Assembly: GCA_002280515.1 (NCBI GenBank)
Contig: NCEA01000026.1
Location: 1-49,658 of the forward strand
Length of the DNA stretch: 49,658 nt
From: Rhodobacterales bacterium 32-67-9
Lineage (GTDB): Bacteria; Pseudomonadota; Alphaproteobacteria; Rhodobacterales; Rhodobacteraceae
Direction: 5' to 3'
The first letter of the stretch is position 1. Every line of letters begins with the position of its first letter. Positions 6,752 to 13,971 of this stretch are shown in pieces. The translations under genes were made by a program, and so were the position numbers. The notes under the pieces are model-generated. The model was not told the DNA's origin. It ran no database searches and worked only from the letters and a program-made list of their open reading frames with translations.

Positions 6752-7689
6752 ACCGGCTTCTGGACGGCCTCGTCCTTGCCGCGGCGCAGGGGCGGCTCCT
6801 CCTCGTCCTCGGCCTCGTCGCGGGGGTCCTGCTCCCCGGTCTCGCGCAGGCGATGAAGCCCTGGTTGCAGGAACTGGTGGCGTTCCTGCTGTTTCTCGCG
6901 GCACTCAGGGTGGGTCCGGGGCGGGCGGCGGGGTCGCTGCGGGGCGCGCTGCCGACGCTCGGCCTCACGCTTCTCTACCAGTTTGCCCTTCCGCTTGGCG
7001 CGGCCGCAATCGTCACCACCGCCGGCATCGCCGACACGCCGGGCGCGATCGCCATCGTCCTGATGCTCGCCGCCTCGCCGATCTCGGGCGGCCCGAACAT
7101 CGCCATCCTTTCCGGGGCCGACCCCGCCCCCGCTTTTCGCCTGCTGATCCTCGGCACCGCGCTCCTGCCGCTGACGGTGATCCCGGTCTTCCAGGCGATG
7201 CCGACGCTGGGAGAGGGCACGGCGGTCTTTCTCGCCGCGGGGCGGCTTCTCGGCGTCATCGCGTCCGCCGCGGCGGCGGCCTTTCTGCTCAGGCGGACGC
7301 TGCTCCGCGATCTCGGCAGGACCGGCGTGGCCGCACTTGACGGTGTCTCGGCGATCGCGATGGCAATCGTCGTCATCGGCCTGATGTCCGCCGTCGGACC
7401 TGCCCTGCGGTCGGTGCCGGAGGTACTGTTCGGCTGGCTCGCCCTCGCCTTCGCGGCGAATTTCGGCGTCCAGATCATCGCGGCGACCCTTCTGCGGCGG
7501 GTCCGCGCCGGGCCGGCGTTGCCGGCCGAGGCGATCGTCGCCGGCAACCGCAACATCGCGCTCTTTCTGGTGGCGCTGCCCGCGACAACGACCGACCAGA
7601 TCCTGATGTTCATCGGCTGCTACCAGATCCCGATGTACCTGACGCCGCTCATCCTAGCCGGGTTCTACCGCCGGCGGGTTTCCGGATAG
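6748..7689 (+). CDS. Bile acid:sodium symporter (BASS)-like membrane protein
   Basis: 313 residues with nine to ten hydrophobic segments. ASPISGGPNIAIL near residue 114 and EAIVAGNRNIAL near residue 265 resemble the conserved crossing helices of the BASS/arsenite-permease fold. The GTG start at 6748 overlaps the upstream stop (GTGA), so it is translationally coupled and ends the operon. It may move an organic anion or metabolite linked to the same pathway. The assignment is to a fold, not a function. It ends 19 nt from the convergent cyclase gene. Confidence 0.65.
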   Translation: MNRLLDGLVLAAAQGRLLLVLGLVAGVLLPGLAQAMKPWLQELVAFLLFLAALRVGPGRAAGSLRGALPTLGLTLLYQFALPLGAAAIVTTAGIADTPGAIAIVLMLAASPISGGPNIAILSGADPAPAFRLLILGTALLPLTVIPVFQAMPTLGEGTAVFLAAGRLLGVIASAAAAAFLLRRTLLRDLGRTGVAALDGVSAIAMAIVVIGLMSAVGPALRSVPEVLFGWLALAFAANFGVQIIAATLLRRVRAGPALPAEAIVAGNRNIALFLVALPATTTDQILMFIGCYQIPMYLTPLILAGFYRRRVSG

Positions 7690-7708
7690 GCCAGGCCAGT
7701 GATCGCCC

Positions 7709-8761
7709 TCAGCGCCCGTCCGGCACGGCGCGCTTGTCCTCAGGCAGGTGCCGGCCCGGGGCGTGGATCGTATACTGCGCCCGGCCGCGCCGCTTGGAGA
7801 CATAGAGCGCGGCATCGGCATCGCTCAGCATCCGGTCGGCGTCGGGCCGGTCGTAATGCGTCGACAGGGTCGCGCCGATGCTGCCGGAAATCCGGCAGGG
7901 CTTGCCCTTGAACGTCACCGGCACTTCCAGTTCGGAAATGATCCGGTGCGAGATCGTGGTGATCATCGCCTCGTCGACCGGACCGGGCAGGATCATCACG
8001 AACTCGTCGCCGCCGACGCGTGCGACGGTATCCTGCTTGCGCGTCGCGCGCCGCAGGACCGAGGCCACATGGGTCAGCACAAGATCGCCGGCCGCATGGC
8101 CGAGCGTGTCGTTCACCGCCTTGAAGAAATCGAGGTCGAGATGCAGGAGCGCGAAGCCCTTGCCACCCCATGCCACCGCATCAAGAACCCGGCCGAGCGC
8201 AGCGTCGAGCGCCCGGCGGTTGGCAAGTCCGGTCAGGGCGTCGGTCAGCGCCTGCTCCTCCGCCGCGCGCTGCGCGGTGCGGAGCCGCATGTTCAGCGCC
8301 GCCAGTTCCCCCATCACCGCCGCCTTGACCTCGGTCAGATACAAAAGCTCGACTGTCAGGTCGGTCGGTGCGAAATCGGCGTCGGTCAGCGCATGGTCGC
8401 GCACCGCCTCGGCGGCGGCGATCCCGAAGGAAAGGTTGACGATCACCCCCTGCCCGTCCTGCAACGGCACGACCAGCCCGCGCAGCGCGGTATGCGGCGG
8501 CTCGCGCAAGCCCAGATGCAGCCTCTGCCCGGCCAGCAGGCGCACTTCGTCCATGGTCCGGGCCCGCTGCGGCTTGCGGATCTGGAACAGATCGAGAAAG
8601 CGCAGGCCGACGAGAACGACCCCGTCGCAGAGCTTGGCGAGCGTCGGCCCGACCGCGCGGATATGGCCGGTGGGCGCCACCCAGAGGAACATCGGCATCA
8701 GCCGGCCCAGATCGGCCACGTCGATCAGCGCCGGGTCGCCGTGGGGATTGCCGTCCATCAT
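7709..8761 (-). CDS. Diguanylate cyclase with N-terminal H-NOX-associated (HNOBA) domain
   Basis: 350 residues. Residues about 18-150 match the HNOBA PAS-like domain that follows H-NOX in soluble guanylate cyclases; alignable blocks include MPMFLWVAPTGHI and the region TDADFAPTDLTVELLYLTEV. A short helical linker (about 145-172) leads to a complete GGDEF domain: DALTGLANRR at about 174-183, HLDLDFFKAVND, and the active-site GGDEF at 250-254. R241-D244 (RKQD), five residues upstream, fits the c-di-GMP inhibitory I-site. No transmembrane segment, so cytoplasmic. The start overlaps the stop of the H-NOX gene by 4 nt, so the two are co-translated and probably form a sensor/cyclase complex controlling c-di-GMP. 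A second ATG at 8758 is possible. Confidence 0.88.
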   Translation of the reverse strand: MMDGNPHGDPALIDVADLGRLMPMFLWVAPTGHIRAVGPTLAKLCDGVVLVGLRFLDLFQIRKPQRARTMDEVRLLAGQRLHLGLREPPHTALRGLVVPLQDGQGVIVNLSFGIAAAEAVRDHALTDADFAPTDLTVELLYLTEVKAAVMGELAALNMRLRTAQRAAEEQALTDALTGLANRRALDAALGRVLDAVAWGGKGFALLHLDLDFFKAVNDTLGHAAGDLVLTHVASVLRRATRKQDTVARVGGDEFVMILPGPVDEAMITTISHRIISELEVPVTFKGKPCRISGSIGATLSTHYDRPDADRMLSDADAALYVSKRRGRAQYTIHAPGRHLPEDKRAVPDGR

Positions 8762-9336
8762 GCCCCCTCGGGCCGGGCAAGGTCGAACCGGCGCCCGGTG
8801 GCGAACTGCGCCTCCAGAAGCTCGATCCCGACGGTTTCCGCGCCGCCCTTGCCGCCCGCCTCGATCAGCACCAGCGCGCCGTAATCGTCGGCCATCGCCC
8901 GCAGGATGCCGGCAAAGACCGCGCCGAACCCGTCATGATCGGCGGCGCAGATCAGCGTGTACCGCCCCGGCCCGGTTGTCTTCAATTCCAGCCCCGGCAT
9001 GTCGAGCTCCGGCACGGCGAGGTGCACCCGGTCCGGCAGTTCGTCGAGCGATTGCAGGAAATCGGCATAATCGACCCCGCCGAAACGCAGGAGCCGGCGC
9101 AGCGGCTCCAGCCCGACGAGGTAGATCCCGATATCTTCCAGCAGTGCTTCGCGCGGCTTGCCCAATTGTCGCGCGGCGGCGTCGATCATCGCATCGGTCA
9201 GCCCGTCGTCATAGACCAGCAGCGCCTCGAACCCGTTCGGATCGATCCCGGCCGCTTCGGCGACAGAGGTCCAGAGCGCGACGCCATAGGTGTCGCGCAG
9301 GAACCACTGTACCGACCGGTTGACGAGCCCGTGCAT
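8758..9336 (-). CDS. H-NOX (heme NO/oxygen-binding) domain protein lacking heme-ligand residues
   Basis: 192 residues, a stand-alone H-NOX. The N-terminus MHGLVNRSVQWFLRDTYG and the segment FLQSLDELPDRVHL align without gaps to bacterial H-NOX and soluble guanylate cyclase beta. The proximal heme His expected in the pattern H-D-x-[IV]-H-L is Pro101 here, while the second His (H105) is kept. The YxSxR heme-propionate motif is replaced by C130-A-A132-D-H134. Ordinary heme binding is therefore doubtful although the fold seems intact. The start is preceded by GGAAGG. It lies upstream of and overlaps the HNOBA-GGDEF gene, the usual partner type for H-NOX. A rewired or heme-independent sensor is the inference. 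Confidence 0.85.
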   Translation of the reverse strand: MHGLVNRSVQWFLRDTYGVALWTSVAEAAGIDPNGFEALLVYDDGLTDAMIDAAARQLGKPREALLEDIGIYLVGLEPLRRLLRFGGVDYADFLQSLDELPDRVHLAVPELDMPGLELKTTGPGRYTLICAADHDGFGAVFAGILRAMADDYGALVLIEAGGKGGAETVGIELLEAQFATGRRFDLARPEGA

Positions 9337-9411
9337 CTGACCTTCCGCTTGCGCGCAGCAAGCCTAGGCCGGACCGCGTTAAGAAAGGGCAAAACCCGGC
9401 CGGGGCGCCGA

Positions 9412-10965
9412 TCAGAAATCGGTGGGCGCGCCGCCCTCTTCCTTGCGCCGCGCGACGAAGGCCTGCAATTCCTCGCGGATGGCCTCCTCCATCGGGGGCG
9501 CCTCGAAATCGGCGAGGATTGCCTTGGCGATGCGGTGGGCGCGTTCCGCCGTCCAGACCGACCCGTCGAGTTGCCAGGCCTCGTAATTGCGCCAGTCCGA
9601 GACAATCGGCGCATAGAAGGCATTGGCGTAGCGGTCCTGGGTGTGCTGGCAGCCGAAGTAATGCCCTTCCGGTCCGACTTCGCGGATCGTGTCGATGGCG
9701 ATGTCCTCGGGCGTCGTCGACCAGGTGGCGGGCTCCATGTAGCGTTGGAGCATCTGCAGGACCTCGCAGTCCATCACGAACTTCTCGGGGCTGGCGATCA
9801 GCCCGCCCTCCAGCCAGCCGGCGGCGTGATAGACCATGTTGGTCCCCGACTGCATCGCCGCCCAGAGCGAATTCGACGTCTCCCACATCGCCTGGCCGTC
9901 CGGCACATTGGCCGCGCAGACGCCCGAGGAGCGCAGGGGAAGCCCGTAGAACCGCGCCATCTGGCCGGTCATCTGGGTCGCGCGCATGTATTCGGGGGTG
10001 CCGAAGGCGGGCGCGCCCGACTTCATGTCGACGTTCGAGGTGAAGGTGCCGATCATCGAGGGCGATCCCGGTGCGACATATTGCAGAAGCGCGATCGCCG
10101 CCAGCGCCTCGGCCACCGACAGGGTCACCGCGCCGGCCATCGTCACCGGCGCCATCGCGCCGGCGAGCGTGAACGGCGTCACGACGACAAGCTGCCCCGC
10201 CCGCGCCAGCCGCAGCGCCCCGTCGATCATCGGGAAATCGTGCTTCAGCGGCGAGACCGAGTTGATGTTGGTGTACATGCGCGGCTTGGCGCGGAACTCC
10301 TCATGGCTGAGCCCGCCGGCGATGCGGACCATCTCCATCGCGTCCTCGACCCGCTCCTTGCCCAGCGCATAGGCGTGGCAGACCTTGTCGGTCAGCGTCA
10401 GCTTCTCATAGAGGCAGTCGAGGTGGCGGACCGAGGGGTGGATGTCGATCGGCTCCACCGGGTAGCCGCCGGCGAAGTGGATGCAGTTGAAATATTGCGT
10501 CAGCTTGATGAAGTCGCGAAAGCCATCCATGAAGCCCGAGACCTTGCCCCGCGCGAGGTCCCAGTAGTTCGGCGGCGAAGAGACGTTGCCGAAAAGGATG
10601 TGCTGGCCGCCGAAGGGCAGCACCCGTTCGGGGTTGCGCGGCGTGACGGTGAACTGCCGGGGCGCGCGCGCCACCATCTCCATGACGAAATCCTCGTCCA
10701 TGAAGACCGTCTCGCCCTCGACCTTGACCCCCGCCGCGCGGAAGATCGCCAGCGCCTCTTCGTTGAGAAACCGGATGCCGATGTCGCTGAGTATGCGCAT
10801 CGCGCCCTTGTGGATCGCCTGGACGCCCTCGGGGCCGAGCGGTTCGATCGGGCGGTCGGGATTGACCGGAATCCGCCACGGCATCTGGTCGATGGCCTTG
10901 ACGCCCGCGCGTTCCGCGTGGCCGGCCCGTCCGCCCGCGCGCTTGCGCCTGAGTTCGCTTCCCAT
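9412..10965 (-). CDS. Trimethylamine methyltransferase (MttB) family protein, non-pyrrolysine type
   Basis: 517 residues of the MttB superfamily, TIM-barrel methyltransferases that move a methyl group from methylamines or betaines to a corrinoid protein. Typical stretches are GPEGVQAIHKGAMRILSDIG at the N-terminus, MYTNINSVSPLKHD and PDGQAMWETSNSLWAAMQSG. There is no in-frame UAG, so it is of the glycine-betaine-type (MtgB-like) rather than the pyrrolysine subgroup. ATG at 10965 is chosen because GGAGGA lies 7 nt upstream. No corrinoid protein or reductive activator lies nearby, so partners would be elsewhere. The substrate is unknown. A HAD phosphatase gene lies 100 nt upstream on the same strand. 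Confidence 0.85.
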   Translation of the reverse strand: MGSELRRKRAGGRAGHAERAGVKAIDQMPWRIPVNPDRPIEPLGPEGVQAIHKGAMRILSDIGIRFLNEEALAIFRAAGVKVEGETVFMDEDFVMEMVARAPRQFTVTPRNPERVLPFGGQHILFGNVSSPPNYWDLARGKVSGFMDGFRDFIKLTQYFNCIHFAGGYPVEPIDIHPSVRHLDCLYEKLTLTDKVCHAYALGKERVEDAMEMVRIAGGLSHEEFRAKPRMYTNINSVSPLKHDFPMIDGALRLARAGQLVVVTPFTLAGAMAPVTMAGAVTLSVAEALAAIALLQYVAPGSPSMIGTFTSNVDMKSGAPAFGTPEYMRATQMTGQMARFYGLPLRSSGVCAANVPDGQAMWETSNSLWAAMQSGTNMVYHAAGWLEGGLIASPEKFVMDCEVLQMLQRYMEPATWSTTPEDIAIDTIREVGPEGHYFGCQHTQDRYANAFYAPIVSDWRNYEAWQLDGSVWTAERAHRIAKAILADFEAPPMEEAIREELQAFVARRKEEGGAPTDF

Positions 10966-11065
10966 GCCGGTTCCTCCGATGCAGGTCGGCTCAAGAATGC
11001 GGCGCCACGGGATCGCTTCGCCGCCCTTCGCGACGTGAAAGCGTCGTTTTTTGATCTTCGCCGGC

Positions 11066-11785
11066 TCAGCCGGCCGGCGCCACTCCCGCCGCCCCTGCCG
11101 CGATCCAGCCCGGCAGGTGGCCGATATCGGGCAGCACCACATCGGCGAAGGGGCGGAGTTCCTCGGCCTCGGCGATGCCGGTCAGCACTGCGACGGTGCG
11201 CATGCCCGCCGCGCGACCGGCAACGAGGTCATGGCGGCTGTCGCCGACCATCGCCACCGTGCCCGGCGCCAGCCCCTCGGCGCGCGCGAAGGCCAGGAGC
11301 GGGCCGGGGTCGGGCTTGGCGCCGTGGCCCGAGTCGAAGCCCGAGACGAAATGGAAATAGCGCGCGATCCCCGCTGATCGCAGATGGGCATGGGCCGGTT
11401 CCTCGGCATCGTTGGTGGCAAGCCCGATCTTCAGCCCGCTTGCCGCGAACCCGGCGAAGAGCGGCACCAGCGGCACCGCCTCCACCAGTTCCGTCACCGC
11501 AGCAAGCGCGTTCATCCGCGCCACGAGAACCGCGTGATCGGCGCCCGGCAGATGCGGCAGCAGATGCGTGGCGATCTCGGGCGCGGTATGGGCGATAACC
11601 GGGCTGTCGGGTTCGAAATGGCCCGAGACGAGGTCGAAGCCGATCGCCCGCCCGAGCCGTTCGGCCAGGCCGGCCGATCCGCCGGCCAGCTCCTCCAGCA
11701 TCCGCCGCGACCAGCCGCCCCAGGTGGCGCGGAAATCGAAAAGCGTGCCGTCCTTGTCGAAGACGAGACCGTGGATGTCGTTCAT
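11066..11785 (-). CDS. HAD-family hydrolase, phosphoglycolate phosphatase-like
   Basis: 239 residues with all four HAD motifs: DKDGTLFD at residues 10-17 (nucleophile Asp10, acid Asp12), the Thr of LATND near 124, the Lys of GAKPDP near 156, and VGDSRHD near 180. The helical cap between motifs I and II is class C1. Such proteins hydrolyse small phosphate esters; the sequence is closest in pattern to Gph-like phosphatases, but the substrate is not determined. It could be cotranscribed with the MttB-family gene 100 nt downstream. Confidence 0.85.
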   Translation of the reverse strand: MNDIHGLVFDKDGTLFDFRATWGGWSRRMLEELAGGSAGLAERLGRAIGFDLVSGHFEPDSPVIAHTAPEIATHLLPHLPGADHAVLVARMNALAAVTELVEAVPLVPLFAGFAASGLKIGLATNDAEEPAHAHLRSAGIARYFHFVSGFDSGHGAKPDPGPLLAFARAEGLAPGTVAMVGDSRHDLVAGRAAGMRTVAVLTGIAEAEELRPFADVVLPDIGHLPGWIAAGAAGVAPAG

Positions 11786-11857
11786 GATTCCTTCTCTCGG
11801 CCCGTGGCGGGCCCGGCTCCGGCGAAATTGGCCAGTTTCAACAGGGAAGGCAACGCC

Positions 11858-12154
11858 TCAGGTCCAGTGGGCTTCCTCTCCGCCGGGCAAGGCGTGGCGC
11901 GCCGATCTCGGCAGGGTGTAGTCGAACCCTTCGGCATCGCAAAAGGCGATCACCCAGGCATCGTCCATCAGCACGAAATCCAGCACGGAAATCAGGAAAT
12001 CCGGCTCTGCGGCGCGCAATCTCAGCTCAACCGGCGCGGTCCCGGTCGCGCCGAGGAAGACCGGCAGCAAATCCTCCTGCCCCACCAGCCAGCCAAGCGC
12101 CTTCAGCGCCACGGTATCGGCAAATTCCTGCCCGCCCGTCGACCTCTTTGTCAT
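11858..12154 (-). CDS. DUF3572 family protein
   Basis: 98 residues, acidic, with no signal peptide or membrane segment. The N-terminal region (ALKALGWLVGQEDLLPVFLGATG) and the end of the conserved block (LMDDAWVIAFCDAEG) match DUF3572, a small alphaproteobacterial family of unknown function. It diverges from pleD, with about 90 nt between them that should hold both promoters. The neighbourhood with pleD recurs in related genomes from general knowledge, suggesting but not proving a link to cell-cycle or c-di-GMP signalling. Confidence 0.8.
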   Translation of the reverse strand: MTKRSTGGQEFADTVALKALGWLVGQEDLLPVFLGATGTAPVELRLRAAEPDFLISVLDFVLMDDAWVIAFCDAEGFDYTLPRSARHALPGGEEAHWT

Positions 12155-12243
12155 TCCTTACCCGCTTGGAAAGCATTTCTTAACCATTCCGAACAAAGGA
12201 TGAGCGGAAGGGACGCACAAGTAAAGCGAACGGAGTGCCTCGC

Positions 12244-13594
12244 GTGGGCGGCAAGATCCTCATAGTCGACGACGTCGCGACGAATCGCATCGTGCTGAAG
12301 GTCAAGCTTGCCTCGGCCTACTACGAGACGGTTCAGGCCGCCGGCGGGGTCGAGGCGTTGCGCCTGGCGCGGCAGATGCGGCTCGACCTCGTGCTGCTCG
12401 ACGTCGAATTGCCCGACATGAACGGGATCGAGGTTTGCCGGCAACTGAAGGCCGACCCCGCGACCCGCGACATTCCGGTGGTGATGATCACCGCCTTCCA
12501 CGACGTGGCCCGCAAGATGGAGGCGCTTCAGGCCGGCGCCGAGGAAGTGTTCTGGAAACCGCTCGACGAGATGGTGCTGCTCGCGCGGCTGCGCAGCCTG
12601 CTCCGCGCGCGCGAGACGGCCGAACAGCTTGGCCTGCGCGACGGCACCTACCGCGAACTCGGGTTCGCCGAGGCGGCGCAACCCTTCGGCGATCAGGCGC
12701 TCGTGGGGCTGGTGGCCGGGCGGATGGAAACCGCGCTCGCCTGGAAGCGGGAGGTTCAGCCACATCTGTCCGACCGCATCCTGGTTCTCGACCGCGAGGC
12801 GGCTCTCGGCGATTTCGCGAGTGGCAAGGTGCCGGATGTCTTCGTCGTCGCCACCGACCTCACGCGGCCCGGCGACGGGTTGCGGCTGATGTCCGAACTC
12901 CGCTCGCGCGCCGCGACGCGCTTTTCCGCGGTCTGCGTGATGCTGCCGGCCGAGGCGCGGGAAACCGCCGCCGTGGCGCTCGACCTCGGCGCCTCCGACC
13001 TGATCGAGGCGCAGGCCGACCCGGCCGAGATGGCGCTCCGGATCCGCACCCAGATCGCCCGCAAGCGCCAGTCCGACCGGCTGCGGACCTCGCTCGCTGA
13101 CGGGCTGCGTCTGGCGATGACCGATCCGCTGACCGGGCTTCACAACCGCCGCTACGCGCTGCCGCATCTGGCGCGCATCGCCGAACGCGCGGCCTCGGCC
13201 GGGCGGCAATTCGCGGTGATGGTGCTCGATCTCGACCGGTTCAAGTCGATCAACGACACCTTCGGCCACGGCGCCGGCGACGCGGTGCTGATCGAGGTCG
13301 CGGAACGGCTGAAATCGAACCTCCGCGCCGTCGACCTCATCGCCCGGATCGGCGGCGAGGATCGACGCCGCCCAGGCCACCGCCGAACGGCTGCGCCGGG
13401 TGGTCGGGGATCGTCCGGTAAAGCTGCCGGCCGGCGCCCGCAGCATTCCGGTGACATTGTCGATCGGCCTTGCGATCGGCTCCGGCCCGGCCGGCGGGAC
13501 GGTCGAGGATCTGATCGGCCTTGCCGACCGGGCGCTTCTCGGCTCGAAGGCCGACGGGCGCAATCAGGTGACCGTCGGCCGCACCGCCGCCTGA
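12244..13594 (+). pseudogene. pleD: PleD-type response regulator/diguanylate cyclase, frameshifted within GGEEF
   Basis: First receiver domain is intact: acidic pair in ILIVDDVATNR, phosphoacceptor Asp in LLDVELPDMNG, Thr in MITA and Lys in FWKPLD. A second, degenerate receiver follows, then a GGDEF domain (TDPLTGLHNRRYALPHL, LDLDRFKSINDTFGHGAGD). At 13351-13361 the frame reads GGE and then shifts; the rest of the domain (IDAAQATAERLRR to the stop at 13592-13594) continues in the +2 frame. The missing length must be 2 modulo 3. A loss of 23 nt would restore exactly the eight residues normally found there, including the second Glu and Phe of GGEEF. Both flanks are well conserved, so this is either a recent inactivating deletion or an assembly error. 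The start may be GTG at 12244 (GGAG 8 nt upstream) or GTG at 12235. Confidence 0.8.
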
Positions 13595-13619
13595 GACGGG
13601 ATGCCCCGGCAGGCTGTTG

Positions 13620-13971
13620 TCATTTCTTCCGCCAGCCCCGTGCCGCCGCTGCCTCGATCCGGTCGGCAAGCGCCGCCCGCGCCTCCGGCGTCATCGCCGA
13701 CAGCCGTTCGAGGAGGAGCCGGCGGCCCAGGTCGAGCCGTTCGGCGGTGCGCGTGCCCTGTTCGGCCAGCACCGCCTCGGTCGCCGCCCGGTCCCAGGGC
13801 TCGGCGCGGAGCGAGGTGACGAGGCGGGCGAAATCCGCCTCCGCCTCGCGCCGCCTGTCGCGGAAATCCGGGGCCGCCGCGATGAAGGCATCGCGCAGCG
13901 CGGCGCGGTCCTCGCGCGTCAGCGCCTCGGTGAAGGGCCCGAAGCCCACGTCTCACGTCGGATTCCGACAT
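13620..13971 (-). pseudogene. Periplasmic heavy-metal sensor (Spy/CpxP-like), N-terminus lost or frameshifted
   Basis: Residues readable from GTG 13949 to the stop at 13620 (109 aa) match the C-terminal helical part of periplasmic heavy-metal sensor proteins: VGFGPFTEALTREDRAALR, then Arg/Glu-rich helices and RLSAMTPEARAALADRIE. The GTG at 13949 has no ribosome binding site. The proper start is ATG 13971, which follows GGAGGGGTGAGG and lies 2 nt after the upstream stop, but that frame (MSESDV) leaves the family sequence after six codons. The usual N-terminal membrane anchor, about 40-60 residues, is absent. The sequence GACGTGAGACGTGG at the join contains a direct GACGTG repeat, consistent with deletion between short repeats. 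It is the last gene of the ECF sigma cluster. Confidence 0.6.

Follow-up and report, generated by a model that had tools for sequence, protein, structure and literature searches.

The hnoX-like gene of Rhodobacterales bacterium 32-67-9 encodes an H-NOX protein that lacks the heme-ligating histidine and the YxSxR motif, and this loss belongs to an orthologous group that is maintained under purifying selection beside a diguanylate cyclase gene. We consider that the proteins of this group, which correspond to Group 5 H-NOX, act as regulatory subunits that restrain the adjacent PAS/HNOBA-GGDEF diguanylate cyclase in response to an input other than heme-bound NO, and we put the probability of this reading at roughly 0.58. 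The DNA studied, referred to here as the window, comprises positions 1-49,658 (49,658 nucleotides) of contig NCEA01000026.1 (GCA_002280515.1) from this member of Rhodobacteraceae. An earlier note on the window had pointed out an H-NOX without the histidine and YxSxR, and had interpreted it as a heme-free or re-purposed sensor; the observation as a whole goes beyond chance, with the histidine found in 0/21 orthologues of the genus versus 42/43 other H-NOX proteins, and the interpretation as a whole is partly supported. The features of the protein are as follows.

8758..9336, minus strand: hnoX-like gene for a 192-residue H-NOX (HNOB) protein without the heme-ligating histidine (open reading frame, Pfam, alignment, AlphaFold2, Foldseek)
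9034..9036, minus strand: codon CCG of Pro101, at the position of the proximal heme-ligating histidine of Nostoc H-NOX (alignment)
8935..8949, minus strand: C130-A-A132-D-H134, at the position of the YxSxR motif (alignment)

The protein matches HNOB (PF07700) with an E-value of 2.1e-19 and 70.5 bits against a cut-off of 25.5, while no NCBIfam family was matched at E up to 0.1 and a search of a phage collection gave no match. On alignment to Nostoc Alr2278 H-NOX, the histidine of LDNLHARV, which we take to be the heme ligand, falls on Pro101 of LDELPDRV, and YQSTR, presumably the propionate motif, falls on C130-A-A132-D-H134, in which C130 is the sole cysteine of the protein. Both features of heme-sensor H-NOX proteins are absent from the window protein, replaced by proline and by C-A-A-D-H just as the earlier note had read them. 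The window protein is nevertheless confidently predicted to fold as an H-NOX: the AlphaFold2 model has a pLDDT of 90.7 and a pTM of 0.85 and places Pro101 within a predicted helix spanning residues 90-107, and the best PDB matches of the model in Foldseek are Nostoc H-NOX structures (E 1.7e-13, TM 0.79/0.83). The window protein thus shares its fold and HNOB match with canonical H-NOX, without the histidine and without YxSxR. We infer from the sequence that it is heme-free.

The loss is not peculiar to this genome or genus, a limitation that is ruled out by its presence across the genus and at most family loci. An orthologue occurs in 21/22 genomes of the genus, and site 101 in these 21 proteins, the window's included, is Pro in 17, Ala in 2, Thr in 1, Ser in 1 and His in none. 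HNOB matches were found in 296/394 family genomes, nearly all of them one genome per genus, and in 14/289 genomes of a class sample, four of those from the same family. We read 199 family loci (one place being entered twice), and this set is not purely random: it comprises the 30 best HNOB scores, none of which belongs to the orthologous group, 108 further listed places, of which 106 belong, 60 of about 161 genomes that fell below the limit of the list, of which 59 belong, and the one repeat. The repeated place (L118 and L221, genome G121) holds a canonical-type H-NOX with the histidine, outside the group. In all, 165 loci lie within the group and 34 outside, and site 101 in the 165 is Pro in 117, His in 18 (10.9%, slightly above the published Group 5 figure of <10%), Gln in 7, Arg in 6, Asn in 5, Gly in 3 and another residue in 9. 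If most orthologues had kept the histidine, the earlier suggestion of a re-purposed domain would have fallen; the orthologue search shows the opposite. Extrapolating from 165/199 loci, about two-thirds of the 394 family genomes searched may carry a member of the group.

When the 21 loci of the genus are added, together with the best 80 of the 572 named loci from GTDB, the full set has 266 loci and 250 unique sequences, and because the named loci partly overlap other genomes sampled, unique sequences are the better count. In these 250, site 101 is Pro in 185, His in 20 (8%), Gln in 13, Arg in 8 and another residue in 24, and Tyr130 and Ser132 occur together in 0/250. A partial sequence (L146) and L153 are counted in the 165, the 266 and the 250, and are left out of the tree. 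L153 (genome G291, contig C24) is a group orthologue with an in-frame TAA, whose open piece has His at the ligand site. All 77 members of alignment A2 match PF07700. For comparison, we examined 44 H-NOX loci outside the group from the family and class samples, one of which turned out to be a group member; the remaining 43 retain the ligand histidine in 42 cases and the Tyr, Ser and Arg of YxSxR in 43, 42 and 41 cases, respectively. Loss of the histidine and of YxSxR is therefore, in this sample, a property of the orthologous group. Separately, a canonical-type H-NOX (L054, genome G106) has Gln at the ligand site, a histidine four residues later and the Tyr, Ser and Arg of YxSxR, and has, as far as alignment tells, lost or shifted its ligand independently. 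The earlier expectation that P101, C130 and H134 would be conserved across a clade holds for the loss of the histidine; the trio itself is not a conserved signature, because H134 is His in only 46/266 loci.

The second element of the main reading is the partner, which is encoded immediately downstream.

7709..8761, minus strand: gene for a 350-residue diguanylate cyclase whose N-terminus is HNOBA/PAS-like and whose GGDEF domain carries the GGDEF motif and an RxxD I-site (Pfam, AlphaFold, Foldseek)
8390..8722, minus strand: N-terminal part of the cyclase, HNOBA/PAS-like, residues ~14-124 (HNOBA match; boundary at residue 124 taken from the model)
8758..8761, minus strand: 4-nt ATGA overlap of the hnoX-like gene and the GGDEF gene (open reading frames)

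The GGDEF domain of this cyclase is a strong match (E 9.9e-42), with RxxD five residues ahead of the motif. HNOBA is matched over residues 14-74 at 15.8 bits, below the cut-off of 23.4, although at E up to 1 the match is found in 28/35 partner proteins scanned, with a best value of 3.6e-9. The 4-nt overlap and the GGDEF domain of the HNOBA-GGDEF cyclase described in the earlier note are confirmed, and its HNOBA assignment stays sub-threshold in the window cyclase. In the AlphaFold model (pLDDT 89.5), a strand-helix region at the N-terminus leads into a long helix spanning residues 132-173, after which comes the GGDEF domain, and the closest structures in Foldseek are PAS-GGDEF proteins and GGDEF domains, with chains of soluble guanylate cyclase also matching. 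In soluble guanylate cyclase, the alpha-subunit H-NOX domain carries no heme and works within the cyclase complex beside the heme-bearing beta subunit. The window genome differs in having a single HNOB match.

This arrangement is nearly invariant. The hnoX stop codon and 700 or more bases of downstream sequence were available at 261/266 loci, and a GGDEF gene is adjacent in 260 of these, the sole exception (L184) having only 715 bases left downstream. The partner start codon lies at -4 in 169/260 loci, the GGDEF motif is present in 260/260 partners and RxxD in 257/260. The partner is present irrespective of the residue at site 101, at 21/21 His loci, 192/197 Pro loci and 47/48 loci with other residues, where the loci counted as lacking it are, except for L184, short or cut downstream.

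Upstream of hnoX on the same strand lie a trimethylamine methyltransferase-like (MTTB) gene identified by a profile match (9412-11142) and a HAD-like hydrolase gene judged by eye (11066-11785), and the resulting order HAD - MTTB - H-NOX - GGDEF is also that annotated in a record of Phaeobacter sp. G2. In the latter (L316), the block is on a 120-kb plasmid, CP104104.1, typed as non-mobilizable, which shows that the module is not confined to chromosomes. In a record of P. ferrooxidans, a relative of P. denitrificans, the upstream neighbor is a ComEC family gene, unlike the MTTB gene of the window. Further along the window, on the plus strand at ~12235-13660, is a response-regulator/GGDEF gene, PleD-like by eye, whose frame leaves the GGDEF profile at 62/161 positions (where the query ended); domain-like sequence continues in another frame, which reflects either misassembly or a genuine lesion. 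A putative promoter precedes hnoX.

9364..9382, minus strand: promoter-like element TTAACGCGGTCCGGCCTAG, ~50 nt before hnoX (TTAA-N10/N11-CTAG pattern upstream of other orthologues)

TTAA-N10 or N11-CTAG occurs in 67/244 orthologue upstream stretches, the reversed order in none at these spacings, and TTAAC in 115/244 against 18.6 expected from first-order shuffles. The full CtrA site TTAA-N7-TTAA was found in 2/244 stretches (0.45 expected), and a scan of 7300-12300 for E. coli-type sigma-70 promoters gave no site. We take the element to resemble an alphaproteobacterial housekeeping promoter with a possible CtrA half-site at -35. The hnox gene of D. shibae is reported to be in the CtrA regulon (PMC7232146).

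The central observation is not new, because ligand loss has been published both for P. denitrificans and for Group 5, and the "new class" envisaged in the earlier note is already in print. Group 5 is a large cluster, assembled with P. denitrificans H-NOX as the starting point, in which <10% of members are described as having the proximal histidine, most having Pro, with no conserved Cys (Lee-Lopez and Yukl, 2022; PMC8738867). The window protein falls in this cluster by tblastn identity to a P. denitrificans record (43.3% over 97%, strain HAMBI_2443), and nothing clear separates it from Group 5. The adjacent GGDEF gene is shared, and the 8% His among our unique sequences fits the published figure. 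Cys at position 130 (159/266 loci) is frequent rather than conserved, and the window protein has no other Cys. The neighborhood legend of that paper, which covers all five groups, includes GGDEF, MTTB and HAD families. The P. denitrificans pathway is treated there as likely NO sensing, and how such proteins sense is posed as a question. The section on Group 5 contains neither YxSxR nor a coupling of site 101 with other sites, and the name Dinoroseobacter has 0 occurrences in the paper.

The P. denitrificans pair (Pden_3719/Pden_3720) provides in vivo evidence. Its H-NOX, an orthologue of 43% identity with Pro at the ligand site as in the window, was noted to lack the axial histidine, like R. 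sphaeroides H-NOX, and its hnoX gene overlaps a GGDEF gene whose product has an N-terminal region of unassigned function (Kumar and Spiro, 2017; PMC5588039). According to the same report, the hnoX mutant is partly biofilm-deficient, with BapA missing, and the dgcAB mutant overproduces biofilm, from which the authors suggest that H-NOX inhibits DgcA. Deletion of hnoX in this Pro-type organism shifts biofilm the way that inhibition of DgcA by H-NOX would predict. However, later proteomics at OD 2.0 showed no differential abundance of BapA in the hnox mutant (PMC12582929), which weakens one strand of this evidence. Kumar and Spiro also propose P. denitrificans H-NOX as a route of NO action, which stands against our main reading; NirS-derived NO is reported to stimulate biofilm even in hnoX and dgc mutants (PMC5588039).

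Taken stepwise, the main reading is that an H-NOX fold with no protein ligand for heme iron and no YxSxR would form a heme-free subunit dedicated to the adjacent cyclase, probably through direct contact with the cyclase N-terminal region. This contact would hold down c-di-GMP synthesis, in the window organism as in P. denitrificans, and the restraint would be independent of canonical Fe(II)-heme NO binding, with the input being something other than NO.

Among the alternatives, one that is conceivable but unlikely is a re-purposed sensor: the emptied pocket would accommodate a different ligand (a small or hydrophobic molecule, or a tetrapyrrole held without iron ligation), to which the protein would respond by switching the cyclase. 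Such a sensor would be in keeping with a conserved and, as predicted, well-folded domain, with the retained cyclase neighbor, and with the retention of Gly70 and Pro114, as in other H-NOX, and of Gly143 within the group, which is consistent with retained sensor mechanics. Positions 132 and 134, however, are highly variable in the group, contrary to what would be expected if its members had a single new ligand site in common where YxSxR used to be, and we know of no such ligand.

We regard as distinctly improbable that heme is still bound through a substitute ligand (C130, H134 or H105, the last lying one helical turn further along) and that NO sensing has been retained. All three residues exist in the window protein, a D. 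shibae member of the group is reported to be a heme NO sensor (PMC8846402), and the NO proposal for P. denitrificans cited above would also fit. Across the group, however, position 105 is His in only 20/266 loci, so that neither this residue nor H134, with the count given above, finds support as substitute, and position 130 is Cys in 159/266; moreover, YxSxR is lost as well, and the protein inferred to be that of D. shibae has the canonical histidine.

A thiol redox sensor, as suggested in the earlier note through C130, has very little to recommend it, although heme-free oxidative activation is described for Vibrio cholerae H-NOX (PMC7108781; PMC8738867) and position 130 is Cys in 18/21 genus members. 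In contrast to the V. cholerae type, with its several zinc-ligating cysteines, a single Cys in the window H-NOX permits neither an intramolecular disulfide nor a multi-Cys zinc site, and Cys130 is lacking from two-fifths of the 266 loci, so that redox through C130 is set aside as the main reading. Group 5 is also described as having no conserved Cys (Lee-Lopez and Yukl, 2022). Finally, a decaying, functionless gene, which loss of the family-defining cofactor site and the one family copy with an in-frame stop (genome G291) might suggest, is highly improbable on the grounds that dN/dS is 0.10-0.18 in eight orthologue pairs, which speaks against a pseudogene, that the gene is kept in 21/22 genus genomes, and that its overlapping or adjacent cyclase partner is kept. 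The earlier note was thus right that this is not random decay, the loss being common to the genus and to most family loci; the group even has conserved stretches of its own, LRRLLRFGG and AMADDYGAL.

The orthologous group is not uniformly heme-free, since the orthologue inferred to be that of D. shibae keeps the histidine (LDDLHDRARL), with CIWHR, and thus W132, at the place of YxSxR. This differs from the Pro of both the window protein and P. denitrificans. D. shibae H-NOX (Dshi_2815) is described as an NO-responsive heme sensor that inhibits Dgc1 (Bedrunka, 2018, as cited in PMC7232146 and PMC8846402). At the inferred D. shibae locus, a GGDEF gene lies downstream, as in the window, and MTTB-like and HAD-like genes lie upstream, with a large membrane-protein-like ORF between the MTTB-like gene and H-NOX, these upstream genes all being judged by eye. 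The window cyclase shares with the D. shibae type an HNOBA-like region (sub-threshold), an intact GGDEF motif and the I-site.

On gene trees that draw on 206 of these 250 sequences after dereplication at 74% identity, and that have the weak branches of one short protein, site 101 has undergone at least 14-15 changes between His and non-His, and its state is therefore labile. The group root is His in a quick tree (posterior 0.95) and non-His in FastTree (posterior of His 0.08), and disallowing regain of His gives a far poorer fit on either tree (lnL -76.1 vs -54.4 and -72.6 vs -57.1). Trp or His at position 132, residue classes chosen post hoc, accompanies His101 in 14/18 rows versus 17/188 others (Fisher p 3e-10, which ignores kinship), and a Pagel-type correlated model of the two gives an LR of 30.1, the largest of 23 simulated nulls being 5.6; branch-disjoint pairs (treekit) supply only 3 and 4 supported pairs. 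When 189 columns were scanned against site 101, position 132 ranked first by mutual information and second by z after position 115, which is Arg, Gln or Lys in 13/18 His101 rows versus 47/188 others. This coupling hints at a heme site that still works in the His-bearing members but is built differently. The literature searched, consisting of article text other than figures and most subscription papers, mentions neither that the group has lost YxSxR nor that D. shibae contrasts with it, nor does it describe the coupling, and the His contrast within the group and the covariation of His101 with Trp/His132 are apparently new.

These results lead us to a tentative proposal, for which we would offer less than even odds, that the orthologous group toggles in evolution between dependence on the cofactor and independence of it, so that one H-NOX/cyclase module serves either as a heme NO sensor or as a heme-free, NO-blind regulator with its partner unchanged. 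As parts of this same joint claim, the sensor state would be marked by His101 together with Trp/His132, often joined by Arg/Gln/Lys115, and the heme-free state, found in most species, by Pro101, mostly without Trp/His132, with repeated switches between the two.

Overall, a ligand-less H-NOX is under selection next to its cyclase partner throughout a bacterial family, and such proteins have already been published. Two annotated orthologue records are labelled heme NO-binding, and if most members cannot ligate heme, this annotation misleads for a widespread c-di-GMP switch. Because the group is mixed, containing both the D. shibae protein, reported to bear heme, and the ligand-less P. denitrificans protein with its deletion phenotype, the question is directly testable on two orthologues. 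If the toggle holds, neither NO-sensor annotations nor the D. shibae result would carry over to the bulk of the family, and the state of a given species could be predicted in part from residues 132 and 115.
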